64,000 bases of DNA, from NCBI RefSeq assembly GCF_007004765.1, contig NZ_VIKR01000001.1:372001-436000 (forward strand), written 5' to 3'. Each line of letters starts with the position of its first letter. The stretch's first letter is position 1. The DNA comes from Aliikangiella marina (GTDB taxonomy: Bacteria > Pseudomonadota > Gammaproteobacteria > Enterobacterales > Kangiellaceae). The translations under genes and the position numbers were made by a program. This document shows, one piece after another, positions 27,428 through 57,435 of the stretch. The notes under the pieces were generated by a model, which was given only the letters and a program-made list of their open reading frames with translations, was not told where the DNA came from and did not search any database.

Positions 27428-27548
27428 ACGCTCGCTTGAAAAAATTTAAAGCGCCTAACTAACCGAATTAAATCGATTTGCTGCGAAAATCGGTCTTTTG
27501 ATACCGAACGTGCTAAAAATCGTCAGTATTATTCATTTGGGGAATACA

Positions 27549-33180: not shown

Positions 33181-35562
33181 TTAATCCCCGTAAGGAATCC
33201 AAATATTTTTAACTTCACATGCCTCTCTCAACAACTGCTGAGAAACATCATTTGCATACCAATCATGCGCTTTGCCATAGTTGACCCAAGTGCGCTTTAG
33301 ATTGGCTGCTGAGGCTAGTTCGACCTGTTGGCTGCCTTCAGCAGACCCTTGATACCAAACGCCGTCGACTTGATCATGATCGGCTAACACTTTAACTAAC
33401 CCATCACGCTCACCAGTCACAATGTTTATAACACCCGCCGGTATATCCGAAGTTTCAATAATTTGATAAAAATCTGTCGCCAACAAAGGCATCTTCTGAG
33501 AAGGTACAACCACAACTCGGTTACCCATTGCGATCGCTGGAGCCAGCATAGTGACAAAAGCGAGGAGGGGAGATTCATCCGGACAGGCGATGCCTAAGAT
33601 CCCTAAAGGCTCATTCATCGCTAAGGTAACACCTTTTAGCGGCGGCTGGTGAACTCGACCTTCGTACTTATCGGTCCAAGCCGAATAAGTAAACAATCTT
33701 TCAATAGCGGTATCAAATTCTGCCTCTGCTTGAGACTGACTTTGCGTGCCAAAAGATACGAGCCGTTGACAAAACTCTGCACGGCGATAGCTCAAGTTCT
33801 CGGCAATGTAATACAACAGCTGAGCTCGAAGATGAGTATCAGTTTTTGCCCAAGACGCTGCTTTGTGAGCTGCTTCAACAGCATTTCGGATATCTTTACG
33901 ATTGCCCTCACCAACTCTACCAAGCGTTTGACCGTCAGAACTTAACACCTTAATCGTATTACCATTATCGGCTCGCGCCTGTTTACCGTTGATATAATGT
34001 TTTGCCGTTTGATCGATTCCTGGAATTCCGGCGACTGGTTGTAGCTTGGTTTTTGGATCTTGAGTGGCATTGCTTGGTTGGTTTTTAGTAACCGAGTTGG
34101 CTTTTGGTTTAAGGTACTCATACATACCTTCCTTACCGCCTTCGCGGCCAAGGCCAGACTCTTTGTAACCGCCAAAACCACAAGCAGCGTCAAACTGATT
34201 GGTTGAGTTAACCCAAACAACACCGGCTTTTAATTGCGGCGCGACATCAAGCGCTTTGTTGATGTTTTCTGACCAAACACTCGCAGCAAGCCCGTAACGC
34301 GTATTGTTTGCAAGATCGATGGCTTCTGGCTGATGACGGAAAGTCATGACCGACAAAACTGGTCCAAAAATTTCGACATTAGCAGCAACGTTTGAAGATT
34401 CAACATTACATAATAACGTTGGAGGGTAGAAACAGCCGTCCTGTGGAAGCTGTGAGTCCGGCTGCCATAAATCAGCGCCTTGCTCGACACTTTGATTGAC
34501 CAGTGCATCAATTCTCTCGCGTTGCACTGGGTCAACAATTGCACCAACGTCAGTATTTTTGTCGAGGGGATCACCAATACGTAGGTTGTTTAGTCGACGT
34601 TTTACTTTTTCAATAAACTCATCAGCAACGCCTTCTTGCACCAATAATCGAGAACCTGCACAACAGACTTGACCTTGGTTAAACCAAATCGCATCAACGA
34701 GTCCTTCAACGGCACTATCTAAATCGGCATCAGCAAAAACAACAAATGGTGATTTGCCGCCAAGTTCTAAAGTAAGTTTTTTACCAGAACCAGCAGTTTT
34801 TTCTCGAATCATTCGGCCAACATTAGTGGAACCGGTAAAAGCAATTTTATTGATATCCGGATGAGTGACAATTGACTCCCCGACGCTACCATCACCAGTC
34901 ACAATGTTGACTACACCTTTCGGTAAATTAACTTCTTCAAATACTTCAGCAAGCATTAAAGCCGTCAAACTGGTGTACTCAGCTGGTTTTAGAACAACGC
35001 AATTGCCTGCCGCAAGGGCAGGTGCAATTTTCCAGGCAGCCATCAATAACGGAAAATTCCAAGGGATAATTTGACCGACAACGCCAACCGCTTCAAATTC
35101 TGGGAATTCAGAGTCGAGTAACTGAGCCCAACCCGCGTGATGATAAAAGTGACGAATTAACAATGGAACATCAATGTCGCGAGACTCTCGAATTGGCTTA
35201 CCGTTGTCCATTGATTCGAGCACGGCAAATTGTCGGGCTCGCTTTTGTAATACTCGAGCAATAGCATATAAGTAACGCGCTCGACCATGACTACCGAGTG
35301 CTTGCCATTCTGGTTGCGCTGATTTTGCGGCTGCGACAGCTTTATCGATGTCAGTTTCGGTCGCTTGAGTGATTGTTCCGAGTACGTCACCGGTTGCCGG
35401 ATTCTTAGTCTCAAAAGTTTTTGCATTGTCGCTTTGTTGCCATTGGCCATCGATGAACAGACCAAAGCCTTGGCCTTTGTTGGCAAGCCAATCTTTTACC
35501 GAGTCGTTAGCTTCTGGTGCGGGCCCATAGCTCATGTCGTTAAAAATTTCAGTAACCTTCAT
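33181..35562 (-). CDS. Tandem-domain aldehyde dehydrogenase of the deoxyribose pathway
   Basis: The protein has 793 residues, far above the usual ~490. Residues about 30-480 form a complete aldehyde dehydrogenase: WNFPLLMAAWKIAPAL, the NAD loop GFTGSTNVGR, LELGGKSPFVVF with the general-base glutamate, and the catalytic cysteine in FNQGQVCCAGSR. Residues about 515-793 form a second, shorter aldehyde dehydrogenase-like domain (KHYINGKQARADNGNTIKVL onward). It has no recognisable catalytic cysteine and is probably structural or regulatory. As third gene after deoA and deoC it most likely oxidises the acetaldehyde released by DeoC. The 93-nt gap to deoC and terminator downstream support one operon. 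Confidence 0.9.
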   Translation of the reverse strand: MKVTEIFNDMSYGPAPEANDSVKDWLANKGQGFGLFIDGQWQQSDNAKTFETKNPATGDVLGTITQATETDIDKAVAAAKSAQPEWQALGSHGRARYLYAIARVLQKRARQFAVLESMDNGKPIRESRDIDVPLLIRHFYHHAGWAQLLDSEFPEFEAVGVVGQIIPWNFPLLMAAWKIAPALAAGNCVVLKPAEYTSLTALMLAEVFEEVNLPKGVVNIVTGDGSVGESIVTHPDINKIAFTGSTNVGRMIREKTAGSGKKLTLELGGKSPFVVFADADLDSAVEGLVDAIWFNQGQVCCAGSRLLVQEGVADEFIEKVKRRLNNLRIGDPLDKNTDVGAIVDPVQRERIDALVNQSVEQGADLWQPDSQLPQDGCFYPPTLLCNVESSNVAANVEIFGPVLSVMTFRHQPEAIDLANNTRYGLAASVWSENINKALDVAPQLKAGVVWVNSTNQFDAACGFGGYKESGLGREGGKEGMYEYLKPKANSVTKNQPSNATQDPKTKLQPVAGIPGIDQTAKHYINGKQARADNGNTIKVLSSDGQTLGRVGEGNRKDIRNAVEAAHKAASWAKTDTHLRAQLLYYIAENLSYRRAEFCQRLVSFGTQSQSQAEAEFDTAIERLFTYSAWTDKYEGRVHQPPLKGVTLAMNEPLGILGIACPDESPLLAFVTMLAPAIAMGNRVVVVPSQKMPLLATDFYQIIETSDIPAGVINIVTGERDGLVKVLADHDQVDGVWYQGSAEGSQQVELASAANLKRTWVNYGKAHDWYANDVSQQLLREACEVKNIWIPYGD

Positions 35563-35654
35563 TTTTCATTCCACAATATTTTGTTTTTTTATTGCTTGTA
35601 CAATTGTCCGATTAAATGGTCTTGTCTATCGGTCCTTTTTCAGCAAGTTTAAAG

Positions 35655-36689
35655 TTAACCCATTGGATGATGATAATTTGCTGAATAACGACCGGTTACA
35701 TGATGCTCTAATTGTCTTTCGATATCTGCCAACAGACTAGACGCACCAAACCGGAACATTTCTGGATTAAGCCAGGTGTCGCCCAATTCTTCTTTCATTA
35801 ACACGAGATAGTTAATAGCGTCCTTCGCCGTGCTAATACCACCGGCAGGTTTAAAACCAACGCGGAAACCGGTTAAATCATGATAGTGTCTAATCATCCG
35901 TATCATCACTAAACTGACCGGTAAAGTCGCGTTGGTCGACTCCATACCAGTACTAGTCTTAATGAAATCACTGCCGGCCATCATCGAGACCATCGATGCT
36001 TTGGCGACATTCGACAGGGTGCTCAATTCACCCGTTGAAATAATGGTTTTCATATGCGCCTCGCCGCAGGCTTTTTTAAAGGCTTTAACTTCGTCGTAAA
36101 GTGCTTGCCAATTACCATTTAACACGTGAGCGCGAGTAATAACGATATCAATCTCTTTTGCCCCAGCAGCCACCGAACGTTTTATTTCTTCAAGTCGAGT
36201 TTCCATGGGCGCCAGGCCTGCTGGAAAACCAGTTGAAACCGCCGCGACCGGGATATTTGTACCTGCTAATGCATTCACTGCAGTGTCGACCATTTCATGA
36301 TAAACACAAACCGCACCTGTGGTAATTCCTAGTGACTCGACGCCGAGTGCTTTTTGGATGTCTAAATTTAGCGGGTACTTTGCCTTCGCGCACAAGCGTT
36401 TGACCTTACCTGGCGTATCTTGACCTGATAGCGTGGTCAAATCGATGCAGCTGATTGCTTTTAATAACCAGGCGGCTTGGTAATTTTTTTTCAGGGAACG
36501 ACGGGCAGTTAATGATTTTGTACGTCGTTGTACCGCGGAAAGGTTAACGCGAATATCGTTCAACCAATCAACCGTCAAAGGAACGCCAGGGTTGTGCACA
36601 GTGTGTTCGTCAATGCTATGTTGATTGCTTGTTTTTGTGCCTTTAACAATAGGTTCAACGTTATTGCGAACAGTATCTTTTTTGCTCAT
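35655..36689 (-). CDS. deoC: Deoxyribose-phosphate aldolase, long form
   Basis: The protein has 344 residues against about 259 for E. coli DeoC. The extra ~85 residues are N-terminal (GVPLTVDWLNDIRVNLSAVQ and neighbours), resembling the longer eukaryotic-type DERA proteins. Catalytic motifs are intact: the Schiff-base lysine in GSDFIKTSTG, the second lysine in GFKPAGGIST, and the aspartate in CIDLTTL. It splits 2-deoxyribose 5-phosphate to glyceraldehyde 3-phosphate and acetaldehyde. AGGA precedes the ATG. It lies 12 nt after deoA. Confidence 0.95.
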   Translation of the reverse strand: MSKKDTVRNNVEPIVKGTKTSNQHSIDEHTVHNPGVPLTVDWLNDIRVNLSAVQRRTKSLTARRSLKKNYQAAWLLKAISCIDLTTLSGQDTPGKVKRLCAKAKYPLNLDIQKALGVESLGITTGAVCVYHEMVDTAVNALAGTNIPVAAVSTGFPAGLAPMETRLEEIKRSVAAGAKEIDIVITRAHVLNGNWQALYDEVKAFKKACGEAHMKTIISTGELSTLSNVAKASMVSMMAGSDFIKTSTGMESTNATLPVSLVMIRMIRHYHDLTGFRVGFKPAGGISTAKDAINYLVLMKEELGDTWLNPEMFRFGASSLLADIERQLEHHVTGRYSANYHHPMG

Positions 36690-36701: not shown

Positions 36702-38039
36702 CTACGCTGGAGTTTTGCTCGTGATGCGTTCTAAAACTGCGTTTGGTTTATTAGTCACCGATTCACTCAAGACGACGGCAGCGTGGACTTGTTTAATGGC
36801 GCGTTGTGCGTCTTCATGTGACTTTGCGTGGACCATCATCAGTGGTTCATCAGCATTAATTTGATCGCCCACCGCTTTGATTTCGCTCAAGCCAACCGAG
36901 TGATCAACATCGTCTTGGGCGCGGCGTCGGCCGCCACCAAGTTCCACTACCACATTACCAATCGCTCGTCCGTCCATCTCTTCAATAGTGAGAGTTTTTG
37001 ACTGGCCAGACAATACAGGCACTACGACCGGCGCTTGCGCTAAATACTGCTGCGGTTTTTCGAGTAAATCAGCGGGGCCCCCAAGTGCGACAACCATTTT
37101 ACTGAATAGCTCTGCTGCCTGACCACTTTGTAAACTTTGGTTCATTTTGGCTTCGCCTTCAGCAAGGTTTTCACATACGCCACTTAATACCAACACTTCG
37201 GCGCCAAGTTCTATGACGACTTGGTGAAGTCGCGGGTCGCAATGTTTGCCTGTCAAATAATCAATCGATTCTTGCACTTCCAGAGCATTGCCGGCTGTTT
37301 GACCTAAAACTTGAGACATATCGGTAATCAACGCTGAGGTCGGTAAACCCAAACCTTCACCGACTTCGACAATATTTTTGGCGAGTGCTTTAGCCATTTG
37401 GTAGTCTGCTGCAAATGCACCGCTACCGGTTTTTACATCCATGATTAAAGCGTCTAAGCCTGAGGCGAGCTTTTTACTTAAAATCGACGCGGTAATTAAA
37501 GGAATTGATTCAACGGTGGAAGTGACGTCTCGAATACCATAGAGGCGTTTATCGGCAGGTGCAAGCTCTGAGGTTTGGCCTACAATAGCACAGCCTATTT
37601 CGCTAACAATTCGCTGGAAATCGGCAACAGAAGGCGCTGCATTGTAGCCTGGAATACTTTCCATTTTATCTAAAGTTCCTCCCGTATGACCTAAACCGCG
37701 TCCGGATATCATTGGCACATGAGCACCACAGGCGGCTAACATGGGAGCAAGCATTAAGCTGACTTTGTCGCCTACGCCTCCGGTCGAGTGCTTGTCGACA
37801 ACCGGACCATTCAGTTTGAAGTTTGACCAATCTAAGGTCGCGCCTGAATGTTGTAAATTGCGTGTTAATTCAACACATTCGTCACGCTGCATTCCCTGAA
37901 AGAACACCGCCATGGCAAAAGCTGCAACTTGTCCCTCGCTGATAGATTGATCAACAATTCCATCCACAAAAAAGCGAATTTCATCGGCCGATAATACCTT
38001 TCCGTCACGTTTGGTTCGGATAACTTCTTGTGCCAGCAT
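36702..38039 (-). CDS. deoA: Thymidine phosphorylase
   Basis: The protein has 445 residues, close to E. coli DeoA (440). Signatures are VIRTKRDGKVLSADEIRFFV, the phosphate/nucleoside loop KHSTGGVGDKVSL, SGRGLGHTGGTLDKMESIPG and MDVKTGSGAFA. It converts thymidine or deoxyuridine plus phosphate to base and deoxyribose 1-phosphate, which deoB (at 22.5 kb) and deoC then process. It is the first gene of the leftward deoA-deoC-aldehyde dehydrogenase operon. Its promoter (TTGACC, 18 nt, TATTAT) is overlapped by a RutR-like box at 38119. Confidence 0.96.
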   Translation of the reverse strand: MLAQEVIRTKRDGKVLSADEIRFFVDGIVDQSISEGQVAAFAMAVFFQGMQRDECVELTRNLQHSGATLDWSNFKLNGPVVDKHSTGGVGDKVSLMLAPMLAACGAHVPMISGRGLGHTGGTLDKMESIPGYNAAPSVADFQRIVSEIGCAIVGQTSELAPADKRLYGIRDVTSTVESIPLITASILSKKLASGLDALIMDVKTGSGAFAADYQMAKALAKNIVEVGEGLGLPTSALITDMSQVLGQTAGNALEVQESIDYLTGKHCDPRLHQVVIELGAEVLVLSGVCENLAEGEAKMNQSLQSGQAAELFSKMVVALGGPADLLEKPQQYLAQAPVVVPVLSGQSKTLTIEEMDGRAIGNVVVELGGGRRRAQDDVDHSVGLSEIKAVGDQINADEPLMMVHAKSHEDAQRAIKQVHAAVVLSESVTNKPNAVLERITSKTPA

Positions 38040-38350: not shown

Positions 38351-38429
38351 GACGTGACTAAAAAGGACTAACATCAAGTTTATGCCATCTGTCGGCGATC
38401 AGCCGAATGGCTTTATGGGAACCCGCTTC

Positions 38430-39635
38430 ATGAGCATCATCGGAATAATAGTCCTCATTGCGATAGCAATCGCTTTCTCTGAAAACCGAAAAGCCATTAA
38501 TTTCAGAACCGTCGGCGCTGCATTTGCGCTTCAGGCGATATTTGCTTGTTTTGTTCTCTACATACCTTTTGGACAAGAGGTTCTTGCATCCGTTTCTAGT
38601 GGCGTTCAAGTTGTGATTAATTACGCTGACGCGGGTATTCAGTTCTTATTTGGTGATTTAGCGAGAGAGAAACTCGGTTTTATCTTCGCGTTTAACGTCT
38701 TGCCGGTACTTATATTTTTCTCAGCGTTAGTCTCGGTGCTTTACTATCTCGGTATCATGCAAAAAATCATTCAAGTGATTGGGCGGTTTTTTCAATACGT
38801 TATGGGAACCGGACATGCTGAATCTCTCTCGGCCACGGCAAACATATTTGTTAGCCAAACTGAAGCGCCATTGATAATACGGCCCTACATCGCAGGAATG
38901 ACTCGCTCAGAGTTATTTGCCGTGATGGTTGGTGGTATGGCTTCGATTGCTGGTTCGTTATTAGTGGGCTATTCCAACATGGGGGTCGAGCTCAAATACC
39001 TAATTGCATCAAGCTTTATGGCAGCGCCTGGCGGACTAATGATGGCTAAAATCGTTGTTCCAGAATTAGGTAAACCGCATGAGGCTGCGGTCGATATTGA
39101 ATTTGATCAAGATGCAAAGCCCGCAAACGTGATAGACGCTGCAGCAAGCGGAGCGATTAGCGGCATGAAATTGGCTGTGAATATCGGCGCGATGTTAATT
39201 GCGTTTATTGCGTTAATCGCGCTGATCAATGGTAGCTTGAGTGGATTAAGCGGGTTGCTTGGTTTACCTGAAATTACGATGCAGAAGATCTTAGGTTACG
39301 TTTTTGCGCCAGTCGCCTACTTAATTGGTGTGCCATGGGGGGAGGCGGTAACCGCTGGAGGGCTTATTGGCCAAAAGGTGATTCTCAACGAATTTGTCGC
39401 ATACGTCGATTTTGTAGCAATCAAGGATAGCTTGGTTCCAGAATCACAAGTGGTTATTACTTTTGCTTTGTGTGGATTCGCCAACCTGTCTTCGATCGCG
39501 ATCTTACTCGGTGGCTTGGGCAGTATTGCGCCTGGTCGACGGCATGATATTGCTAAATTAGGTTTAAAAGCAGTGCTTGCTGCATCATTGGCTAATTTAA
39601 TGAGTGCAGCATTGGCTAGCTTATTTTTTGTTTAA
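38430..39635 (+). CDS. nupC: NupC-family nucleoside transporter (concentrative, CNT)
   Basis: From the ATG at 38430 the protein has 401 residues. It starts MSIIGIIVLIAIAIAFSENR, which matches close relatives, with GGGA nine nt upstream. An ATG at 38382 would add 16 residues without family support. CNT features include the QTEAPLIIRPYIAGMTRSEL substrate region and PWGEAVTAGGLIGQKVILNEF. Multiple hydrophobic helices place it in the inner membrane as a cation-coupled nucleoside importer. It heads nupC-cdd-tetR, divergent from deoA behind paired RutR-like boxes. Which nucleosides it prefers cannot be read here. Confidence 0.93.
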   Translation: MSIIGIIVLIAIAIAFSENRKAINFRTVGAAFALQAIFACFVLYIPFGQEVLASVSSGVQVVINYADAGIQFLFGDLAREKLGFIFAFNVLPVLIFFSALVSVLYYLGIMQKIIQVIGRFFQYVMGTGHAESLSATANIFVSQTEAPLIIRPYIAGMTRSELFAVMVGGMASIAGSLLVGYSNMGVELKYLIASSFMAAPGGLMMAKIVVPELGKPHEAAVDIEFDQDAKPANVIDAAASGAISGMKLAVNIGAMLIAFIALIALINGSLSGLSGLLGLPEITMQKILGYVFAPVAYLIGVPWGEAVTAGGLIGQKVILNEFVAYVDFVAIKDSLVPESQVVITFALCGFANLSSIAILLGGLGSIAPGRRHDIAKLGLKAVLAASLANLMSAALASLFFV

Positions 39636-39680: not shown

Positions 39681-40625
39681 ATGACAATACGTAATCTGTC
39701 ATCGCGAACTCCCGAGAAAGATCGAGAGAGCTTTGAGCGCGTGATACAAAATGACGGCGTAATGCTGGCTGAAGAGTGTCAGAAATTCTGTGAAACGCAC
39801 AATGAATCTCTCGAAACACTGATGCTAAAGTTGTTACCACTTGCAGCAGATTATTCGGTTGCCAATATTTCTAACTTTAACGTTGGGGCCGTTGTCTGTG
39901 GTAAGCAACAAAATAGAAAGGGATATAGCAATTTATATCTTGGCGCAAATTTTGAATTTGATCATCTAGCGCTCGGTAATTCACTTCATGCTGAGCAAGC
40001 GGCGGCAACCAATGCTTGGATGCATAATGATTCGATTAAATCACTTGCAACCTCCGCGGCGCCCTGCGGACATTGTCGTCAATTCCTTTATGAATCTAGC
40101 TGTGGCGACTCGTTACCCATTTTAATTCCCCAGCCCGAATCCTCAATCGCTCAATCGAATGCAGATTACCAAGCGATTGAATTGAATACCTTATTGCCTG
40201 CAGCATTTGGTCCTGCCGATCTAGGTTCGCAAGAAAAGCTGATGTCAAATAACAATCAGGGGATTAATCTATCCTTTGCAAAGGGAGTAAATGATTCATT
40301 AGTCGATTTAGCGCGATTAACAGCTGAACAAAGTTACGCTCCTTATACTAAAAATTTTGCAGGTTGCGTTATCTTAGCCGAAGACAATGAAACCTATTTG
40401 GGACGCTATGCAGAAAACGTTGCATTTAATCCTAGTTTACTCGCGTTTACCGCCGCGCTTAGTCAAATGAGAATGGCAAGAAAAGCTTTTTCAAGTAATC
40501 GAATTAAGCGGGTAATAATCGTAGAACATGATACTCAAACAAGTCAGCGTTCAGCCAGTGAACTGTTACTAGGCTCGCTCAATTCAAGAGTCAGATTAGA
40601 GTGGCATGCAGCCACACTAGAATAG
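39681..40625 (+). CDS. cdd: Cytidine deaminase, two-domain form
   Basis: The protein has 314 residues, the E. coli-type homodimeric enzyme with a catalytic N-terminal and a degenerate C-terminal deaminase domain. Zinc motifs are HAEQAAATNAW and PCGHCRQFL. FNVGAVVCGKQ and YLGANFEF line the substrate site. The second half (from about residue 185) repeats the fold (YAPYTKNFAGCVIL, GRYAENVAFNPSL) but lacks the zinc cysteines. It deaminates cytidine and deoxycytidine to the uridine forms, feeding deoA. It follows nupC by 45 nt. Confidence 0.95.
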   Translation: MTIRNLSSRTPEKDRESFERVIQNDGVMLAEECQKFCETHNESLETLMLKLLPLAADYSVANISNFNVGAVVCGKQQNRKGYSNLYLGANFEFDHLALGNSLHAEQAAATNAWMHNDSIKSLATSAAPCGHCRQFLYESSCGDSLPILIPQPESSIAQSNADYQAIELNTLLPAAFGPADLGSQEKLMSNNNQGINLSFAKGVNDSLVDLARLTAEQSYAPYTKNFAGCVILAEDNETYLGRYAENVAFNPSLLAFTAALSQMRMARKAFSSNRIKRVIIVEHDTQTSQRSASELLLGSLNSRVRLEWHAATLE

Positions 40626-40741: not shown

Positions 40742-41383
40742 ATGAAAGATCAAAAAGAAATTACTCGGGAAATTAACGAGAAAAAAATTCTCCATGCTGC
40801 AGAATCGGTTTTTGCGCAGTATGGCTACAAGGGGGCGACCACGGAACAGATTTCTAAAGTTGCAGAATTACCAAAGGCTAATATTCATTACTACTTTAAA
40901 ACTAAAGAAAATATCTATCACCGCGTGTTAGAGAATATTCTTAACGACTGGATGGATGCCGCAAAAGCGTTTGATAATTTTGAAGAGCCAAACGTGGCGT
41001 TAACCAAGTATATCGAATCCAAAATGCAATACTCTCGTCATTATCCTGCCGCTTCGAAAGTTTGGGCGAGTGAAATTATGCAAGGAGCGCCGGTTGTCGG
41101 TTCGTTCTTAGAAACGACGTTAAAAGATTGGTTGGAAGATCGAATTAATGTCCTTCAGGGATGGATAGATTCAGGAAAAATTAAACCTGTTGATCCTCGA
41201 GCCTTTATATTTTTAATCTGGTCCGTCACTCAACATTACGCAGACTTTGAACATCAAATCGTTATATTAAATGAAGGCAATAGACTAACCGATGAAGAGT
41301 TTGCGCAAAAAACGCAGCAGGTGGTTGAGTTTGTTTTGGCGTGTGTTGGGTTGAATCAGAGCAATAAGTTTCAAGAGGGTTGA
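40742..41383 (+). CDS. RutR-like TetR-family repressor
   Basis: The protein has 213 residues. The N-terminal helix-turn-helix (about 15-62) includes GYKGATTEQISKVAELPKAN and IHYYFKTKENIY. The ligand domain matches E. coli RutR closely: RHYPAASKVWASEIMQGAP, IDSGKIKPVDPRAFIFLIW and SVTQHYADF. RutR senses uracil (and thymine) and binds TTGACCA-N2-TGGTCAA; boxes of this type occur four times nearby. Repression of nucleoside uptake and catabolism here, relieved by a pyrimidine, is inferred. AGAGAAGAG precedes the ATG. A 115-nt, very A-rich gap separates it from cdd, and a terminator follows. No rut operon is in the window, so the symbol is withheld. Confidence 0.87.
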   Translation: MKDQKEITREINEKKILHAAESVFAQYGYKGATTEQISKVAELPKANIHYYFKTKENIYHRVLENILNDWMDAAKAFDNFEEPNVALTKYIESKMQYSRHYPAASKVWASEIMQGAPVVGSFLETTLKDWLEDRINVLQGWIDSGKIKPVDPRAFIFLIWSVTQHYADFEHQIVILNEGNRLTDEEFAQKTQQVVEFVLACVGLNQSNKFQEG

Positions 41384-41460: not shown

Positions 41461-42330
41461 TTATTTCTTTATTTTTAAATCTCTTTCAAGTAATTTCACA
41501 ACATCTTCAGGATTGTCGACATGAGTAAAGAGTTCTTCTACCTCATATCGTTTAATCGTGCCACGCTTCACCATATCATCGAGTCTTTGGTAAAAGCTTT
41601 TCCAGTGAAAGTCTTTGTCGCCAACAATATACATTGGTAAAGGATCGAGTTGATTGCTTTTGATTTGTTCAATTGTTTGGAACAATTCCCATTCAGTGCC
41701 TGTTCCACCAGGTGCAAAAACCATTGCGGCTGAGTGGTTAATCATTAAGCTTTCACGGATGGCCACGCTTGTGAAAATGATACCGTCTGAGATAATGTTT
41801 TGCGCTTTTTTAGATGATGGTCGATACTGCCAAAACGCTTTACTTGCATCACCATTTTCTCCTTTACGCGATGGACCATAGTAGGTTGTGTAACCAATAC
41901 TTGGACCACCCGCTTTCGTTGCGCCACGAGCGCCGGCTTCCATTATGCCTGGTCCAGCGCCAGTTAAAATCGGATAAACTTCTGCGTTTCGTTTAGTCCA
42001 GTTGTAAGCGAGATTATAAATCTGTTTGTAGAGTCGAGCATTCGCTTCATTAACTTCTGGATCGGTAGATTGACCATTCTCGCTGATACGAGAGCTTCCG
42101 AAAATAGTGACAAAGCCGTTGGGGTATTTGTTGGCTCTGAACGACTCGGCACAAGACAAATCGCGGAAAAAGTCATCTAGGGTCAGATTGTTTTCTGCAC
42201 CTTTGTAAGGGCCAGTATAACTGGCGTTTTTGATAGCACTTTTACAGGTTGTTGGCGCAGTATCAGCTTGCACTGAAAATTGAGCCACAGACAAAATTAT
42301 CGAAGTAACTAATAGCGTGATTTTTTTCAT
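41461..42330 (-). CDS. LOG-family nucleotide phosphoribohydrolase-like protein with signal peptide
   Basis: From the ATG at 42330 the protein has 289 residues. A typical signal peptide MKKITLLVTSIILSVAQFSV with AQ.. ending QA-DT comes first. Then follows the LOG/PpnN-type Rossmann fold: VTIFGSSRIS, LTGAGPGIMEAGARGA, a SVAIRESLMINHSAAM segment with the conserved arginine, and the family hallmark PGGTGTEWE. LOG proteins cleave nucleoside monophosphates to base and ribose 5-phosphate. They are normally cytoplasmic, so export would be unusual. It is last in the add-OPA transporter-purine permease operon, so a periplasmic nucleotide-splitting role fits. The activity is not proven by sequence. Confidence 0.85.
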   Translation of the reverse strand: MKKITLLVTSIILSVAQFSVQADTAPTTCKSAIKNASYTGPYKGAENNLTLDDFFRDLSCAESFRANKYPNGFVTIFGSSRISENGQSTDPEVNEANARLYKQIYNLAYNWTKRNAEVYPILTGAGPGIMEAGARGATKAGGPSIGYTTYYGPSRKGENGDASKAFWQYRPSSKKAQNIISDGIIFTSVAIRESLMINHSAAMVFAPGGTGTEWELFQTIEQIKSNQLDPLPMYIVGDKDFHWKSFYQRLDDMVKRGTIKRYEVEELFTHVDNPEDVVKLLERDLKIKK

Positions 42331-42390
42331 TATCATCGTATCCAAAAGTTTTTAGTGAATTAAGTTAATCAGTTTGCTTTTTCAAGATCC

Positions 42391-43689
42391 TTATTCAGTA
42401 CCTAAGAATACATACTTAGAGACGAAAACAAGGGCCATGATTAAAGCGGGAATATGGGAACGGTTAAATTGACCGGTCGTGATTTTTAATATTGCGTAGC
42501 TGATGATGCCAAACCCGATACCATCGGTAATTGAAAAAGACAGTGGCATAACAATTATTGTAACTACCGCTGGCACGTATTCGGTCATATCTTCCCAGTC
42601 AAGCAGCGTGACATTTTTGACCATATAAGTGGCAACAAATAGTAGTACAGGGAAAGTTGCGTAGCTTGGAATCGAACCCACTAAAGGTGACAAAAACAAG
42701 CTGGCTAAAAAGAGAAGGGCAACAACTACCGCCGTTAATCCTGTGCGACCGCCAGCATTAACGCCTGCTGTGCTCTCGATATAACTGGTTGTTGGTGAAG
42801 TACCAATGACTGCACCCGCCGCCATTGTTGTACTATCGGCGAGCAGCACTTTGTTCAAGCGAGGTAGCTTGCCATCTTTATCCAACAGGTTAGCTGAATT
42901 GGCTACACTGACTAAAGTACCGGCAGTGTCAAACATATGCACGAACAAAAAAGCCAGTACGATACCTAGCATTGCAATGTCAAATGCACCGGCAATGTCG
43001 AGTTGTCCGAGCGTCGGCGATAAACTAGGCGGCATTGAGAAAACACCTTTTATCTCGGTGATGCCAAATAACATACCGAGTAACGTTGTGACGAAGATAC
43101 CGATAATAATCGCGCCTGGAATTTTCCGAGCCTCTAGGGTAACGATGATTAAGAAACAAAATATTGCGAGCAGAACAGTTGGTTCGGCTATGTCACCCAG
43201 AGTGACTAGGGTTACTGGATGGTCGATAACAGTTGCCATATTTTGGAGAGCAATAATGGCCAAAAATAAGCCAATGCCGGCCGCAATGGCTATTTTTTGA
43301 GAAGGCGGTATCGCGTTGATAACCCATTCACGGATCGGTAAAACGGTGAGGATTAAGAACAATACACCAGCAAGGAATACTGCCCCTAAGGCGACTTGCC
43401 AGCTATGCCCAGCACCAAGCACCACAGAGTAAGTAAAGAATGCGTTAACGCCCATTCCGGGGGCGAGTGCAATTGGGTAGTTAGCGTATAAGCCCATTGC
43501 CAAAGTTGCTAAGGCAGAAGCAACACAGGTGGCAACGAAAGCGGCATCTCGATCAATGCCTGCTTGCGACAAAATATCAGGGTTCACAAAAATGATGTAG
43601 CCCATGGTTAAAAATGTCGTAAACCCGGCAATGATTTCAGTTTTTAAGGTAGTTTTGTTTTCTGATAATTTAAATAGTGACTCTAGCAT
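42391..43689 (-). CDS. NCS2/AzgA-family purine base permease
   Basis: The protein has 432 residues and about 12-14 hydrophobic helices. The N-terminal TEIIAGFTTFLTMGYIIFVNP and NYPIALAPGMGVNAFF are diagnostic of the adenine/guanine/hypoxanthine permease branch (AzgA, with E. coli PurP and YgfQ-like members). GTSPTTSYIESTAGVNAGGRTG is the other conserved block. It should import a purine base by proton symport across the inner membrane. It lies between the OPA-type transporter and the LOG-family gene, and downstream of adenosine deaminase, in one operon with gaps of 47-60 nt. The specific base is undecided. Confidence 0.92.
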   Translation of the reverse strand: MLESLFKLSENKTTLKTEIIAGFTTFLTMGYIIFVNPDILSQAGIDRDAAFVATCVASALATLAMGLYANYPIALAPGMGVNAFFTYSVVLGAGHSWQVALGAVFLAGVLFLILTVLPIREWVINAIPPSQKIAIAAGIGLFLAIIALQNMATVIDHPVTLVTLGDIAEPTVLLAIFCFLIIVTLEARKIPGAIIIGIFVTTLLGMLFGITEIKGVFSMPPSLSPTLGQLDIAGAFDIAMLGIVLAFLFVHMFDTAGTLVSVANSANLLDKDGKLPRLNKVLLADSTTMAAGAVIGTSPTTSYIESTAGVNAGGRTGLTAVVVALLFLASLFLSPLVGSIPSYATFPVLLFVATYMVKNVTLLDWEDMTEYVPAVVTIIVMPLSFSITDGIGFGIISYAILKITTGQFNRSHIPALIMALVFVSKYVFLGTE

Positions 43690-43736
43690 TGTGCTTTCTC
43701 TTAGTTATTTCTTTTTATTAATCGACTATCAAAAAT

Positions 43737-45131
43737 TTAGCGATGTAATTTATCCAAAATAGGCGAACGGCTATTCCAAGTAAATAATAGCAAAATCATG
43801 CCAATAAATGCGGAGGCAAGATAAAAATGAATGACATAGTCCCAACCCCAGTGCTCAGCAATATAACCTGTACCAAAGTTTGCAGCAAAAGCACCGATGT
43901 AGCCAAACAAACCAGTTAGTCCGACTGCGGTTGCGGCTGCCTTTTTGGTTGCAAAATCAGCGGCAGCCACAGCGACGAGTAACATGGGCCCATGGACAAA
44001 AAAGCCGACTGCAAATAGGGTAAATGACATGAGTACTGGATCGTCAAAAGGTACATACAATATCGCCAGTACCGAAAGGACCAACAAGAACATAAATAGT
44101 ACCGATACTCGGCCGCGTCGTCCTCGGAAATAGGTATCAGACAGCCAGCCTGCTGCAATCGCACCGACAATGCCAGCAATCTCAAAAACTGAGGTGGTTA
44201 TGGCCGATTCCGTAATTGAAAAGCCGCGACTCTCTTTTAGGAAGCTGGGCGCCCAATCTAAAATACCAATGCGGACGATATAAACAAACAAATTCACTAA
44301 GCTAACAAGCCATATGAGTTTGTTAAACAAGATATGGTCTTTAAAAAGTTGAATGGCACTTTCTTTTTTATTCACATCTTCGATGACATCATCATCTAGA
44401 AATAAGTCATCTTCATCGGGTCCATGCTCTTTAAGTTGCTTGCGTTGATAAACTTCAACGGGTGGGAGATCAACATCTTCAGGTTTATCTCGTAAACGAT
44501 TAAACAAAAATACCCCGTAGATTACTGCGAACATGGCTGGCGCAAAAAACACTGAACGCCAAGTTTCGAAATAAACAATTAAGTATCCACCCGCAGTTAA
44601 GATAAACGCCGCACCAATATGATGTGACATATTCCAGATACCCCACTGTTTACCGATTTCGCTTGTTGTAAACCAATGAGTGATTAATCGGGAGCAGGGC
44701 GGTTGTCCCATACCTTGGAAGATATTATTTAATATCCAAAATAAGGCAAAAAAGGTCGTCACTGATAATCCCAGAAAGCTACTCATGCTCTCAGTGGTGA
44801 AACCCAATAGAAAGCTTACACCTGCGGAGAGCAACAAACCGGCACTCATCACGTAGCGGGCGCTGTAATTATCGACTAGCAGTCCACTCACGAACTTTGA
44901 GAGACCGTAAGCGATTGAAGCAAATGCTAGCGCTGCACCAAACTCGTCTTTACCGATATCAAACTCTTCTCTGATGTAGGGGTTGGCGACTGATAAATTT
45001 TTACGAATAAAGTAAAAAACCGCATACCCGGTCAATATCGAAAACATAATTCGATTTCGCCAATACGGATAGCGATTGATGGCGTCTTGAGTGAGCTCGA
45101 TTGATTGTTTATTAGAATTTGATTGGCTCAT
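43737..45131 (-). CDS. MFS transporter of the organophosphate:phosphate antiporter (OPA) type
   Basis: The protein has 464 residues with twelve hydrophobic segments. NRIMFSILTGYAVFYFIRKN, DEFGAALAFASIAYGLSKFVSG and NIFQGMGQPPCSRLITHWF match the GlpT/UhpT-like family, which exchanges sugar or glycerol phosphates for inorganic phosphate. A long acidic central loop (DEDDLFLDDDVIED) is unusual. In this setting, between adenosine deaminase and a purine permease, the substrate might be a pentose phosphate or a nucleotide breakdown product. That is inference, since GlpT-like specificity cannot be read reliably. Confidence 0.85.
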   Translation of the reverse strand: MSQSNSNKQSIELTQDAINRYPYWRNRIMFSILTGYAVFYFIRKNLSVANPYIREEFDIGKDEFGAALAFASIAYGLSKFVSGLLVDNYSARYVMSAGLLLSAGVSFLLGFTTESMSSFLGLSVTTFFALFWILNNIFQGMGQPPCSRLITHWFTTSEIGKQWGIWNMSHHIGAAFILTAGGYLIVYFETWRSVFFAPAMFAVIYGVFLFNRLRDKPEDVDLPPVEVYQRKQLKEHGPDEDDLFLDDDVIEDVNKKESAIQLFKDHILFNKLIWLVSLVNLFVYIVRIGILDWAPSFLKESRGFSITESAITTSVFEIAGIVGAIAAGWLSDTYFRGRRGRVSVLFMFLLVLSVLAILYVPFDDPVLMSFTLFAVGFFVHGPMLLVAVAAADFATKKAAATAVGLTGLFGYIGAFAANFGTGYIAEHWGWDYVIHFYLASAFIGMILLLFTWNSRSPILDKLHR

Positions 45132-45160
45132 TGACCTTTTATTCCTTAAAGAGTTATCCC

Positions 45161-46183
45161 TTAATGAGTGGATACCGTATTGACTAGGTTATCGATTGCC
45201 GCCAGATGTTTTGCCTTTTCTGGCTCATCCAAAAAAGAAGCCGTGAAACTATTTTTGGCAAGTTGAACTATTTGTTGCTCGGTTAGGTTTAAAGCTGACT
45301 GAATCGCGAAAAAATTTTCGTTAAGATAACCACCAAAATAAGAAGGATCATCCGAATTAATCGTAATCAAAAGGCCTTTTTCGAGCATTGCAGGTAACGG
45401 ATGAGTGTTGAGAGCATCAACGACGCATAGCTTTAAGTTTGAGAGGGGACAAACGGTCAACGCCATTTGGCTTTCGCTCAACCGCTTAACCAGCGCTTCG
45501 GATTCCATCGCGCGATTGCCATGATCGATTCGATCGACTTTCAGTAAATCTAAAGCTTCTTTGACATAGGAAGGAGGACCTTCTTCACCAGCATGCGCAA
45601 CCAGCTTCAAGCCTAATTCTCTGGCTTGATTAAACACTTGTTCAAATTTTGATGGCGGGTGGCCTACTTCAGAAGAGTCGAGTCCGACCCCATCAATGCG
45701 ATCAAGAAATGGTTTAGCTTGCTGTAAAGTGTCAATCGCTTCCGCCTCGCTTAAGTGACGTAGGAAACACATGATAGTCTTAAAGGTAATTCCCCATTTT
45801 TGCTGGCTGTCATTAAGGGCTCTATTGATGCCAGTAATAACGGTTTCAAATGCAATCCCTCGCTCGGTATGGCCTTGCGGGTCAAAAAAGATTTCGACAT
45901 GACGAATATTTTGCTGATGGCACTTTTCTAAATAGGCGATAGTCAGATCATAAAAATCTTGCTCATTGATTAAGACGCTCATGCCGGCGTAGTAAATATC
46001 TAAAAAGTCCTGTAGTTGAGAGAAGTTATAGGCTTGTTGGATTTCCTCAACGCTGGTGTAAGGTAAGTCTACCTGATTGCGCTTGGCCAGTTTAAACATT
46101 AGTTCTGGCTCTAAAGACCCTTCAATATGTAGGTGTAATTCAGCTTTTGGTAGCTGCTCTATCAGTTTCTGAATGTTTGACAT
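45161..46183 (-). CDS. add: Adenosine deaminase
   Basis: From the ATG at 46183 the protein has 340 residues. The zinc-site motifs are intact: KAELHLHIEGSL, VAHAGEEGPPSYV with the catalytic glutamate, RIDHGNRA, and TINSDDPSYFGG. It converts adenosine and deoxyadenosine to inosine forms. A seven-residue longer frame (46204) has no support. It is the first gene of the add-OPA transporter-purine permease-LOG operon. A RutR-like box (46306-46321) lies 123 nt upstream, which ties it to the same putative regulon as deoA, nupC and the TonB receptor. Confidence 0.94.
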   Translation of the reverse strand: MSNIQKLIEQLPKAELHLHIEGSLEPELMFKLAKRNQVDLPYTSVEEIQQAYNFSQLQDFLDIYYAGMSVLINEQDFYDLTIAYLEKCHQQNIRHVEIFFDPQGHTERGIAFETVITGINRALNDSQQKWGITFKTIMCFLRHLSEAEAIDTLQQAKPFLDRIDGVGLDSSEVGHPPSKFEQVFNQARELGLKLVAHAGEEGPPSYVKEALDLLKVDRIDHGNRAMESEALVKRLSESQMALTVCPLSNLKLCVVDALNTHPLPAMLEKGLLITINSDDPSYFGGYLNENFFAIQSALNLTEQQIVQLAKNSFTASFLDEPEKAKHLAAIDNLVNTVSTH

Positions 46184-46305
46184 GATTAACTCACTGTAAT
46201 CCAAGCAATGTCGAAAGTTTCAAGTTAACTTTTTGAATTAAATAAGGTTTTTAGGCCTACCGTCAGTTGCTCGAGCTTCCTAATTGGGGTGTTCTTTTTA
46301 AGATC

Positions 46306-47019: not shown

Positions 47020-48261
47020 TTAGAGTTTACGATACTGGAATAAAAACTCTTGGTAGGCTTCACCTGACTCAGTGGTGCCAAAGTAATAGGATTGAACTCT
47101 AAAACCAGGAAACATCTTAGAGATTTGTGAAGTCGTTAGTGGTTGGTTCGCGACTTCACCAGAAAACTCACTGCTAAATTTAACCAAGCAACTTTTTTCA
47201 ATTTTAAACAGACATGGCTGAATCCCAATAGTATCGGTATACGGCAGGACCATATGTAAGAGAGCTCCATTGTCCATATGGCTAGTGAGTTTCTCAAACA
47301 GCCGTTCGGTTTCAGTTTCACTGATAAAGCAGAGCAGATCCCAAAATAATACTAAATCGAATTTAACCGAGTCGCGATAGTTGAAAACCTGGTTCCCTAG
47401 GTGTAAGGGTTGGCCAACCGCAACACTTTTTTCCCAAGTCATTGCAGCAAATAAGTCCTCTTCGATGCCAAGGTTGGCCAAGGATTCCAAGACTTTTATA
47501 TTAGCAATTCTCGAGCTTCCACAATCAATAATACTATGCGTTTTGCTTTTACTAAACACCGCGAGTTGTTTGGTGAGGTTAGGAAGACTAATCGACTGAT
47601 AGCTTTCATTGGACTCTGAACGAGCGATACCGGTTTGCCCATGAGCAATACTCGATTCAAAATGAACTGAGCCATTACTTTCTGATTGATGAACGAAAGT
47701 ATACTCGACTAACCCTTTACCCTCAGACTGGTTATGTTTTAAGGTTTCTTTGAGGTTAAATTCTTTAAACTGCTGCAATAATTCGATCGTAGCGTGCGAG
47801 TAATTACTAATGTTTGATTCTGACTTTGATTGTATAACCTGATAACTAAAATCATCCTTTAAAATAAATAACAGTGGTTGTTCGGGTATTATGCCACTCG
47901 TGTGCCGTGTGGCATGAATGACTGTACCGGGTTTGAGCTTATCGGCAATCAGTTCAAACAGAATTGATATTTCTTCAATCGATAAATAATGAAATAAATC
48001 CCAGGTAAGTAGAATATCAACTTCGACATGGTCATTTAATATGACAAGGTGTTGTCTCAACGCCTCCTTAAAACAGAAGTCATCATCGATCTTTATTTCA
48101 CTGAGAAACAAGGGAAGATCTTCAACATAGCATCGGCAGCGTTTTTTTATAAACGCACGAGTTGTCCCAGATGCAAATGCGCCCAGATCTAATATCACAC
48201 TGTTGGGTGATATGATCTGCTGAAGCAAGTTAGTACTCGTCGAATTCAAACCCTGATTCAT
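47020..48261 (-). CDS. Tandem methyltransferase-like protein of unknown function
   Basis: The protein has 413 residues made of two related halves. Half one (about 1-185) has SVILDLGAFASGTTRAF, then VDILLTWDLFHYLS. Half two (about 225-413) has SIIDCGSSRIANIKVLESL, then FDLVLFWDLLCFIS. Both follow the class I SAM-methyltransferase plan of a glycine-rich loop then an acidic strand followed by an aromatic helix, but the loops are degenerate, so activity is doubtful. Linker sequences are serine-rich. It is transcribed 83 nt after the bactofilin gene, and may act with that scaffold. I do not recognise a named family. Confidence 0.6.
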   Translation of the reverse strand: MNQGLNSTSTNLLQQIISPNSVILDLGAFASGTTRAFIKKRCRCYVEDLPLFLSEIKIDDDFCFKEALRQHLVILNDHVEVDILLTWDLFHYLSIEEISILFELIADKLKPGTVIHATRHTSGIIPEQPLLFILKDDFSYQVIQSKSESNISNYSHATIELLQQFKEFNLKETLKHNQSEGKGLVEYTFVHQSESNGSVHFESSIAHGQTGIARSESNESYQSISLPNLTKQLAVFSKSKTHSIIDCGSSRIANIKVLESLANLGIEEDLFAAMTWEKSVAVGQPLHLGNQVFNYRDSVKFDLVLFWDLLCFISETETERLFEKLTSHMDNGALLHMVLPYTDTIGIQPCLFKIEKSCLVKFSSEFSGEVANQPLTTSQISKMFPGFRVQSYYFGTTESGEAYQEFLFQYRKL

Positions 48262-51060: not shown

Positions 51061-54000
51061 ATGGACAAAAACGATTCTAATAATAAGGGAAACGGAGGAA
51101 CTGCAAAAGGAAAGGGCAGTCGCTTCCGATCAAAATCGACAACTTTAAAGCCGATCATTCTATCGACTTTTCTCATCGTATTGCCTATTGCTTTGTATTG
51201 GTTTGTACAAATACAAAACCATCAAGAATATGAGCAAGATAAAATTTACCGAACACTCCGCGAGCTAGAGCTGCATATCTCAAAAGAGCTATCCGCTCTT
51301 GAAGGGTTAGAGAGAGTGCTTCCACTAGAATCGGTACTACCTGGAAAGCTTTATAAACAACAAAAAGATCGCAGAAACAAGTTACTCACTAACTTACACC
51401 CTTGTTCCGCCCTAATACTTGAAGATAGTGGTTTCAAGTCTCAACTCAAAATCGAAACAACGGTCTCAGGAACAAATTGCCGATGGAACAATGACACCAA
51501 GGAAGAAGTTTTACTGACATTTAAGGAGCTTAAAACATCATTCGATAGTGATAAGCAGTCTGTTATTGAAGATTTAAATGATTTGAACGACGAGAAAAGT
51601 GAAGGAATCAAAGATATCGCAAGTGATTTTAATTTTGATATCGAATCTCCGGCGCGATTGGGTAGTCTTTGCTTGGAAAATGCTATCGAAGATACAACTT
51701 GTACAGAGCTAAAAAAAATGAGTCGTGCCAGCTCCGCGGTTAAAGCCGCTGCGAGCTTTGCTGACATTTTGGCAAACGGGGTTGTCATCTACGAAGCCTG
51801 TGAAAGTGTTAATAGCGCATTGAGCAATTCTGGGGCTCAGACCGAAGCAAGCAAAACAAAGTCAAGTAAAAACGCCTACAAAAAGCATCGCACCTATTCC
51901 GACAAGCTTGTGTATGATTGTGAAGAATACCGAGATAATCTTGACAGTCTTTTTGAAGATTTTGTTGATACCATGAACATCAAAGCACCGAGGACAACTC
52001 AAGAAGTCAAATCGGTCGCCAACACAATAACCGAAATTATCGATGTTTTTTACGATACTTTAGAATTAGTCTCGACCCACCTAGTCGATTTGGAAGGTTC
52101 TTTGAAACAGAGAGTGGCGCCTTTTCAAAAAATATTAAAATCTTCCAACATGTGCGTTTTTATTTCCGCCGATCATAGCAGTATTAGCTTTGACAAAGTG
52201 AGCGTCATTAACCGCGGCGAGTTTTACACCAAGTTTAGCTCCGATATAGCGAGTTGTAGTGCAGTGCTAGAAGGTAAAAATATTATAATTATTAAAAAGT
52301 CACTCAAAGATTATTCAACAACTGCTTCGCTCGTTGATAGTCGCTCGCAGACTAGAACTAGCTCACGGAGAGCATTGTCTCGCAGTAATCGAACAGATAA
52401 GCCGGAAGAATCCAATGTTGTCTGGCTTGCTGTTGGTGTTGATAGTATTTTAAAGCGCTACCGAAGAACTTTAACTTACATGGAAGATATCTTTTTAATC
52501 GATAACTCTGGCGAAGTGTTTGCCAGCTTTCTTGGCGCGAATAAAAATTCTGCGACGAATACTTCTGACTATCGAATCCTTAATTTAAAACCGCTGCTTA
52601 ACGAGGCAATTGAAAACAACAAAGCCAAGACTCCTGAGAGTGAAAAGCACATTCTCGGCAAGGTTGAGTTAAATGAAATCGGCCATTCTGCTAATCAGGG
52701 TAGAGCCATTGACCCCGCCTGGTCTTATCAAGCGTCGTTAATAGTGGAAGGGGCTGAGTATCATGCAATGGTAAAGCCGACTTCAATTAGTCTTCGAGAC
52801 TCGAAAAGCGTGTATAAAAAGAACAAATTATTACTCGTAGGGTTAAAGAAACCCAACCAAATTAACTTGATGACAGAACGGCTTTCACCACTATTCCACT
52901 TCACGGTGTTGTTTCTTGCTTTGTTACTTTTGCTAACTATGCCGGTTTTACATGTCATACTGACTCGCAAACATAATTCCTACTCTGCTTTTTCAGTTGG
53001 ACTATTTAAAGTCGCCGTTTCATTGTCCGTCATTGTAACCTTCTCAAGTTTTAGCGGTTATTTCACCATGCTCAAGCATAACTTATACAGTGCAGAGTTA
53101 TTAGACAAAACCGCGGATAAGCTTCTAGATGATTGGCAAAAAGAACGTAATGCGGCAATCAAGTTTATGAAATCAGTCGAGCATTGCGTGTTTAAGCCAG
53201 TTCAAAACGATATACCACAAGAAGCAAACTGTCCCGAATATTTCAAACCGAGCAATCTTCTCTTTTATAAAGAGTATGAACAAATCAATGGTAATGATGG
53301 TAACTTCGCGTCGAGAACAGAAGGGGTTGATAGTTACGTCTACAGACAGAAAGGCGGTTTGCCGATGCTTGGCTTGGTTTTTTATACCGATGAAAATGGC
53401 ATTAAGGAAAAACCTGATTGGATGGCGCGTGACTATGTACCTGTGAGAAACAAGAAAGTTAATCTATCTCAGAGAAACTACTTTAAAACACATCGAAATC
53501 AATTGGCATGGAAATTCTCGGCTAATGACAAAAAGCCTCAGCAAGAGAACACTAGCCAAGAGATGAGCAAATCACAGGTTCATCAGGATTATTTTGTCGA
53601 GCGTATTTACAACTATATCGATGGTCGAAAAATTACCCAACTTTCAATCCCGCGGACAGTAAAAAATACTCAAGAAAACACCGGTGGCTTTAATGGAATC
53701 GTCTCTGGTGAAATAATGGCGCTGACATTAGAAAGTCCAATTTTACCACCTGCCATGCGTTATGCTGTTGTCGAAAAAAGCTCCGGTCAAGTACTTTTTC
53801 ATTCGGAAAAAGAAAAAGTGCTGGTAGAGAATTTTTATGACGAAATGGACGACACCGATCTTGCTCATGCAATAAGACTGAATAGCGAATCCTTAGAAAT
53901 GATCGTTTATCGAAGTAAAAAAGTTGTCGCCTATTCGAGACCAATTCCAAATACAAACTGGTCGCTCATTTTACTTTATGACTCTTCGGTTGCTCATGGC

Positions 54001-56265: not shown

Positions 56266-57435
56266 CTAGAGTAATATCTGCTCGCCGTTTGCTAAAACAC
56301 GATAAATTTTTTCATGTTTTATCAATAGTCCCTCAGAGCTTCGAAATGGAAAACTATTTCGATAGTCTTTTGGGTGGGCAACATCAATCGCGATAACCTG
56401 ACCATCAAACTGTTTGTTAACTTTTGATTGAATTGTGTGACCGACAATAACGGCTTTCGCGTTGAAAGCTTCCAAGGTTTTTCTGACATCCTGGGCATCA
56501 ATATCTGATTTGAAGTAGCCACGATACCAAGAGGGACCTGTGGTTGTTGATGTCAGAAATTGTGTCTTATTTTTTTCTCCTTGAGGAAAGTAGAGCTTTC
56601 GATAGTTGTTTCTGACAATCTGATTAATTTCTTCGATAGAAGTCGTAAATTGAGGTGTTTTGGGGTGAATGCCACCATGGACAAATAGATAGCCATTAAT
56701 CAGTTCTACGGTATTTTTATGGCTCATCCAGCGACCAATGAATGAGTTTTCTCCATAGAGTTCATGTTGTTGTTTATCTAAAATTCCAGCGACATGAAAA
56801 TATTTTTCTTTTGCTTTTTTGAAGTTGCCTTGGAGGTTTTTGATTTCGTGGTTGCCTAAAATAAAGTGAACAAGACCGCCATGTTGTTTAGCTTGTTGTT
56901 CGAGTTTATAGATAAACCACAATACTTGCGTGGTGGAAAAGCCGCGATCAACAAAATCTCCAACAAGTACCAGGTGACCTTTCCCAAAGGTCCATTCTAG
57001 CTGATCATTGATGACTTTATTAGCAATTAAAAAATCTCTGAATGTTTTAAATCCACTTTCAATATCAGAGATTGCAAGAATTGGAGCGTTATCGTTATAA
57101 ACAGCCGCAGGGATTTTAAAATTAGCGTCCAATTGAAATTCGAATGCATTATTTTCCAACGCAAAATGAGTTTTAGCGTTTGGTTTAGATTCGATAGAAA
57201 AAGTTTCTGAGTCGACGTAGAAGCCTTCATCTCGATCGCCTCTGATGTAATTAATTTTTAAGGTTTGATCTTGGATGAATACATGAGGACCTTCCCCCGC
57301 TAATTTTACCGCTAGTGGATTATCACCGAAGTGTGCAGACGCGCCTATGCTGATACCGAAAATGATAGCTGAAGTTAACAACAACAGGCAGCTGATGACA
57401 AAGTGTTTAGAGAACGTCATTAACTCTTTTTTCAT
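56266..57435 (-). CDS. Exported or membrane-anchored calcineurin-like phosphoesterase (PPP-like)
   Basis: The protein has 389 residues. A hydrophobic segment (about 10-33) acts as signal or anchor. Phosphatase motifs follow: ILAISDIESGFK, LVGDFVDRGFSTTQ, FILGNHEIKN, LFVHGGIHP and VIVGHTIQ. The first motif has glutamate (DIE) where PPP enzymes carry histidine (GDxHG), a variant also seen in bacterial relatives. The residues GDxVDRG and GNHE indicate a two-metal phosphoesterase acting in the periplasm. The substrate is unknown. It is convergent with the giant membrane protein; the stop codons are 6 nt apart with no terminator between. Confidence 0.85.
   Translation of the reverse strand: MKKELMTFSKHFVISCLLLLTSAIIFGISIGASAHFGDNPLAVKLAGEGPHVFIQDQTLKINYIRGDRDEGFYVDSETFSIESKPNAKTHFALENNAFEFQLDANFKIPAAVYNDNAPILAISDIESGFKTFRDFLIANKVINDQLEWTFGKGHLVLVGDFVDRGFSTTQVLWFIYKLEQQAKQHGGLVHFILGNHEIKNLQGNFKKAKEKYFHVAGILDKQQHELYGENSFIGRWMSHKNTVELINGYLFVHGGIHPKTPQFTTSIEEINQIVRNNYRKLYFPQGEKNKTQFLTSTTTGPSWYRGYFKSDIDAQDVRKTLEAFNAKAVIVGHTIQSKVNKQFDGQVIAIDVAHPKDYRNSFPFRSSEGLLIKHEKIYRVLANGEQILL

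Follow-up and report, generated by a model that had tools for sequence, protein, structure and literature searches.

Why should a bacterium export a nucleotide hydrolase of the LOG family, and what would such an enzyme do beside transporters for bases and organophosphates? The question is raised by a four-gene operon in the window, a 64,000-nucleotide stretch of the 5.3-Mb genome of Aliikangiella marina (contig NZ_VIKR01000001.1, positions 372,001 to 436,000). An earlier note on this DNA, made from the sequence alone, had proposed that nucleotides are split in the periplasm and that base and pentose phosphate are then imported separately, bypassing phosphatase. In favour of the core of that proposal are the conserved arrangement of the genes, their joint occurrence, N-terminal export signals, a pair of conserved cysteines and a second, uracil-linked lineage, all described below; the phosphatase bypass is weakened. 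We consider it fairly probable that the operon encodes an extracytoplasmic route in which scavenged nucleotides would be split at the glycosidic bond. The broader proposal is held with slightly better than even confidence: an exported LOG clade in at least two proteobacterial lineages would split environmental nucleotides outside the cell, base and phosphosugar being imported apart and the sugar retaining its phosphate.

Operon structure and conservation

The operon occupies positions 41461-46204 of the minus strand, as defined by open reading frame coordinates and Pfam matches, and the listing of open reading frames agrees with the positions given in the earlier note. It begins with an A_deaminase-family gene (45161-46204, ATG at 46183; PF00962), followed after 29 bp by a gene for an OPA-family organophosphate:Pi antiporter-like MFS protein (43737-45131; MFS_1), after a further 47 bp by one for an NCS2 permease of the AzgA type (42391-43689; PF00860) and, 60 bp before its ATG, by the LOG gene (41461-42330). 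The LOG open reading frame extends to 42345, where it opens with TTG; the alternative ATG at 42330, which gives a protein of 289 residues, is more probably the start, since it is there that relatives begin. Directly after the LOG stop codon lies a terminator-like hairpin of 14 pairs (41455-41420), a consensus match on the minus strand that is readable on both strands. Terminator-like sites number 14 in the region vs 5.2 in shuffled sequences, with short ones (5-6 pairs) within the operon; on the minus strand, a scan of the region detected nothing resembling a promoter.

The association of the four genes is real, conserved and selective. Their order and orientation are kept in five other genomes, three from the window's own family and two from another, which is the co-occurrence that the earlier note had suggested looking for. 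A sixth relative (L132) is cut short, its contig ending 0.2 kb past the permease and before the LOG position, and in one of the five (L109) several genes, including those for the OPA protein and the permease, are broken by frame shifts that are probably an assembly error. Across the order, the exported LOG protein was found in 5 of 394 genomes (E ≤ 1e-30) and the window-type OPA protein in the same five (E ≤ 1e-105, a threshold set after a gap in the scores had been observed), the window's own genome being included in both counts; the two samples of 394 genomes are taken as the same draw, as inferred from their equal numbers. Within the family (40 genomes), four have the LOG protein and five have close OPA relatives (at least 74%), the extra one being the L132 genome with the cut contig.

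The exported LOG proteins

The window's LOG protein matches PF03641 at 64 bits (cut-off 27), falls below the cut-off of the NCBIfam model TIGR00730 (42.9 against 96.35) and has an intact PGGTGTEWE motif. Its N-terminus, MKKITLLVTSIILSVAQFSVQA followed by DT, reads by eye as a Sec/SPI-like (signal peptidase I) signal, so both features that the earlier note had singled out are present. The signal-peptide prediction which that note had proposed was carried out as a rule-based scan of the related loci, with the window's protein set aside and each start codon tried. An export signal was called in all 20 rows of the exported clade, which represent 16 distinct proteins (7 rows SPI-like and 13 lipoprotein-like), vs 1 of 93 rows for other proteins of the LOG superfamily. 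C29 and C60, the sole cysteines of the window's protein, are invariant in 17 of 17 clade members, which suggests a disulfide between the two and hence an oxidising compartment. A cytoplasmic LOG protein with a hydrophobic N-terminus by chance is rejected, given that an SPI-like or lipobox signal is kept throughout the clade together with the two invariant cysteines.

Two further PF03641 proteins are encoded in the genome, an ordinary LOG and a PpnN-like protein, neither of which has a signal-like N-terminus by eye. The exported protein is rejected as a PpnN orthologue, as the PpnN-like protein is encoded elsewhere in the genome; against the PpnN model NF038390 the exported protein scores 25 bits, the cut-off being 450. 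In a tree of 61 rows, in which bootstrap values had not fully settled, a branch with 100/100 support and a length of about four changes per site separates the 17 exported proteins from the rest. The remaining 44 rows comprise 42 of 84 ordinary LOGs, the genome's own LOG (thus entered twice) and its own PpnN. By sequence, then, the exported LOGs are a distinct clade, marked by an N-terminal lipobox or signal peptide, by a pair of invariant cysteines and by a Glu directly after the catalytic Arg (R192-E193 in the window's protein). The catalytic Arg and the glutamates of PGGTGTEWE are themselves invariant in all 17.

An AlphaFold2 model of the protein has a mean predicted local distance difference test score of 78.5 and a predicted template modelling score of 0.78. 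By sequence and by Foldseek alike, its nearest solved structures are type-II LOGs (best 1wek, 9us2 and 5wq3, respectively TT1465 and the proteins of N. meningitidis and C. glutamicum), with which it shares the Rossmann fold, the catalytic Arg and the PGGxGTxxE motif. It differs from them in sequence, the best fold alignments showing about 20-24% identity, in its signal peptide and two-cysteine N-terminal segment, in having Arg-Glu for Arg-Lys and in its transporter operon. The reaction predicted for it, nucleoside monophosphate to base and ribose 5-phosphate, is that of E. coli PpnN (YgdH), which the relevant passages of PMC6717881 describe as active on nucleoside monophosphates; by contrast, PpnN has flanking domains gated by (p)ppGpp, and the window's protein has a signal peptide and scores far under the PpnN model. 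The closest precedent is BpLOG (BP1253) of B. pertussis, which parts of PMC6864091 discuss as possibly periplasmic or located at the external membrane and report as active on AMP, GMP and CMP. However, BpLOG is 48% identical to TT1465 and carries R120-K121, and is thus an ordinary type-II LOG, for which the same parts of that paper describe no transporter operon or nutrient route (PMC6864091). Literature searches of open-licence PMC papers found no exported-LOG nutrient route among the papers listed, BpLOG being nearest; the author of the earlier note likewise knew of no described system of this kind. The proposed route would be new; the kind of enzyme is already known.

The clade is not an isolated oddity, since it has members in the order and in the Burkholderiaceae. 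Nor does it appear to be plasmid-borne: a tblastn search of 72,556 plasmid records gave matches in 38, all below 60% identity, and the 15 of these that were listed lie at 23.5-28.8%, as for ordinary LOGs. A groundwater gammaproteobacterium has a clade member of the lipoprotein type (40-43% identity); there, no nucleotide gene was found among four Pfam-scanned neighbours, and no other gene of the window matched at the locus. One collection scan for LOG relatives covered the best 80 of 466, and the distribution derived from that scan is incomplete. A second copy of the exported LOG gene in one genome (G015) is decayed, with several in-frame stops.

The proposed route and its alternatives

The operon partners appear suited to an external base-releasing enzyme, as they would supply a base importer, an adenine processor and a phosphosugar importer. 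The purine permease and the OPA transporter that the earlier note had recognised are upheld; its adenosine deaminase is not. The deaminase scores 423 bits with 3ou8, 3pan, 3pao and 3pbm and 359 bits with 3rys, all named adenosine deaminase by their depositors, vs 121 bits with mouse adenosine deaminase, a difference that speaks against the adenosine deaminase identity. We take the first four entries to be Pa0148 and 3rys to be a second adenine deaminase. Goble et al. 2011, cited in PMC6281700, state in their title that Pa0148 deaminates adenine. The window's Pa0148-like enzyme is therefore probably an adenine, not an adenosine, deaminase, an identity which strengthens the case for a free-base route. 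The permease has three PDB matches at E ≤ 0.001, each of them AZG1 or AZG2, which are adenine/guanine permeases. The OPA protein keeps Arg at the positions aligned with R45 and R269 of GlpT, the two binding-site arginines of that transporter.

From the combined evidence we infer the localisation, activity and substrate range of the LOG enzyme and the cargo of both transporters, as follows. An exported S1/P1 nuclease (25407-26204, minus strand, with a signal-like N-terminus by eye) would yield 5'-nucleotides. In the periplasm, the exported LOG would cleave these at the N-glycosidic bond into (deoxy)ribose 5-phosphate and free base. Purine bases would enter through the AzgA-type permease, and the deaminase would convert adenine to hypoxanthine, salvageable by a phosphoribosyltransferase. 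The OPA antiporter would take up pentose phosphate in exchange for phosphate, the imported sugar passing to the pentose phosphate pathway; deoxyribose 5-phosphate would go to the deoxyribose-phosphate aldolase DeoC (35655-36689) and to an aldehyde dehydrogenase of 793 residues adjoining deoC (33181-35562), both on the minus strand. The latter protein has two Aldedh stretches and, lying with deoC beside deoA (33181-36689 for the pair with deoC), suggests a two-part oxidation of the acetaldehyde from deoxyribose 5-phosphate.

The second lineage offers a different setting. Among Burkholderiaceae, the exported clade is present in 10 of 399 genomes, including Pseudorhodoferax sp. Leaf267, and all ten members have lipoprotein-type N-termini. 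In six of the ten, LOG follows genes for a GTP-cyclohydrolase-II-like protein, a DUF1688 protein, which is presumably URC4, and a uracil phosphoribosyltransferase; these calls come from Pfam for the Pseudorhodoferax locus and partly for one other, and from tblastn for the rest. The six loci can be read as a URC1-URC4-upp-LOG operon of the uracil catabolic pathway outlined in parts of PMC7530994, to which an exported LOG would supply uracil. The gene next after LOG in Pseudorhodoferax encodes a PnrA-like ABC binding protein. The other four loci have different neighbours, as judged from translated open reading frames and tblastn.

Several observations weigh against the proposed route. The exported clade is rare and patchy: beyond the 5 of 394 genomes in the order, it was found in 2 of 369 genomes of a class sample, the window's own included, and in none of six other genomes of the window's genus. 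The S1/P1 nuclease is present in 11 of the 40 family genomes, i.e. in 4 of 4 with the LOG gene and also in 7 of 36 without it, and an adenine deaminase is uninformative on pyrimidine nucleotides. None of the ten Burkholderiaceae loci (17.9-19.9 kb each) has a match to the window-type OPA protein, permease or deaminase, and in the four with different neighbours no base-use gene was found among those searched; the part of the scheme that involves the OPA protein is therefore confined to the first lineage. Signal-bearing (by eye) phosphatase-like genes and a NupC gene lie in the same window. Finally, all 17 clade members have Glu directly after the catalytic Arg, a position at which 82 of the 84 ordinary LOGs (the 93 other rows minus nine dropped for score, length or unknown residues) have Lys and the other two Arg, so that the clade's substrate may differ from that of ordinary LOGs. 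The clade thus departs from the Lys-after-Arg pattern connected with substrate binding in BpLOG, although this is not strictly family-defining, the genome's own PpnN-like protein having, by eye, Leu at this position. A K121R variant of the B. pertussis enzyme is reported in part of PMC6864091 to have minimal activity.

The best surviving alternative concerns the transporter. It may be that LOG splits nucleotides and that the OPA protein is merely co-regulated and transports a different phosphate ester, such as glycerol 3-phosphate, ribose 5-phosphate being dephosphorylated outside. We regard this as unlikely, though deserving of serious thought. GlpT (1pw4, 290 bits) is the nearest solved structure, and the missing OPA match in the Burkholderiaceae loci fits this account too. 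The OPA protein is also the sole match to itself in its own genome at E ≤ 1e-20, and a general glycerol 3-phosphate role is therefore conceivable. It scores, however, under the curated NCBIfam cut-offs of the GlpT, PgtP, UhpT and UhpC models, and is possibly a subfamily of its own; moreover, in the order sample it was found only in genomes with the exported LOG.

Rather less probable is that a phosphatase route dominates, with dephosphorylation by a PhoD-like phosphatase (26205-27254, minus strand) and a DUF2608 protein (24537-25403, minus strand) and import of nucleosides by a NupC-type transporter (38382-39635, plus strand). LOG would then deal only with unusual or modified nucleotides, for example cytokinin-like or methylated ones, and the bases released from these would be taken up. 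DUF2608 is weakly like HAD class-B acid phosphatases, under the cut-off, and both phosphatase-like proteins have signal-like N-termini by eye. The published model for DNA-degrading bacteria, in the passages concerned, calls dephosphorylation critical (PMC8289736), and part of PMC6864091 reports that B. pertussis LOG produces 6-O-methylguanine, in keeping with an odd-nucleotide role. Such a division of labour leaves unexplained why the OPA and adenine deaminase genes stand in the LOG operon at all six sufficiently complete loci, the window's included, and why Burkholderiaceae place LOG in a uracil-use operon. The earlier note's phrase 'bypassing phosphatase' is weakened: the UshA-type 5'-nucleotidase domain PF02872 has no match in the genome, other nucleotidase families not having been searched genome-wide, but the PhoD-like, DUF2608, metallophosphoesterase and NupC genes are present. 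In view of the phosphatase-like genes and NupC, a phosphatase/NupC route probably runs in parallel with the proposed one.

That the Arg-Glu pair marks a changed function, i.e. action on a different N-riboside phosphate such as ribosylurea 5-phosphate or nucleotide binding only, seems decidedly improbable, since the pair's fixity, the long stem of the clade and the handling of ribosylurea by URC4 of the neighbouring uracil pathway (as given in parts of PMC7530994) are set against an invariant catalytic Arg and invariant motif glutamates, a PpnN that likewise lacks the Lys and top Foldseek matches that are type-II LOGs.

The glycosidic-split reading, if true, would alter how scavenging of nucleotides is seen. 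Extracellular DNA is described in sections of PMC8289736 as an important source of phosphorus, nitrogen and carbon at the seafloor, and its scavenging as requiring dephosphorylation ahead of uptake. The DNA-degrading bacteria treated there likewise use an exported nuclease, processing outside and salvage inside; by contrast with the window's putative route, which would break the glycosidic bond and leave the sugar phosphorylated, they remove phosphate with a 5'-nucleotidase and import nucleosides (PMC8289736). A glycosidic split would provide the cell with free base and with a sugar that is already phosphorylated, sparing a kinase step, and would supply cargo for an OPA subfamily. LOG proteins with signal peptides would gain a testable nutritional function apart from cytokinin making, and the conserved association makes this candidate scavenging route directly testable.

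Other nucleotide-related genes in the window

Further genes of nucleotide metabolism surround the operon. Convergent with LOG is a gene for a TetR-family regulator (40742-41383, plus strand) that is RutR-like, under the RutR cut-off, beyond which lies cytidine deaminase (cdd, 39681-40625, plus strand); thymidine phosphorylase DeoA is encoded at 36702-38039 on the minus strand. The 21-31 kb part of the window holds a phosphoribosyltransferase (21858-22406, minus strand; best match hypoxanthine phosphoribosyltransferase, sub-threshold), phosphopentomutase DeoB (22556-23779, plus strand), uracil phosphoribosyltransferase (upp, 23819-24445, minus strand), a TonB-dependent outer-membrane receptor (27498-30689, plus strand) and a thymidine kinase, besides the DUF2608, S1/P1 nuclease and PhoD-like genes given above.

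In two of the relatives (L109 and L111), the LOG operon directly adjoins a cluster comprising the phosphoribosyltransferase, deoB, upp, DUF2608, S1/P1 nuclease and TonB-receptor genes. Compared with the window's set, the PhoD-like gene is present in L109 only and thymidine kinase in neither, and the TonB receptor of L111 is just 35% identical to that of the window. The DUF2608 gene stands between upp and the S1/P1 nuclease gene in the window, L109 and L111 alike, and its product is a candidate exported nucleotidase.

Three other open reading frames may be recorded. A calcineurin-like metallophosphoesterase (56266-57435, minus strand; PF00149, 59 bits) is a possible further phosphatase. A 1732-residue open reading frame (51061-56259, plus strand) has a sub-threshold Cache-domain match as its sole Pfam trace, and a 413-residue protein with no Pfam match (47020-48261, minus strand) appears by eye to consist of two methyltransferase-like halves.

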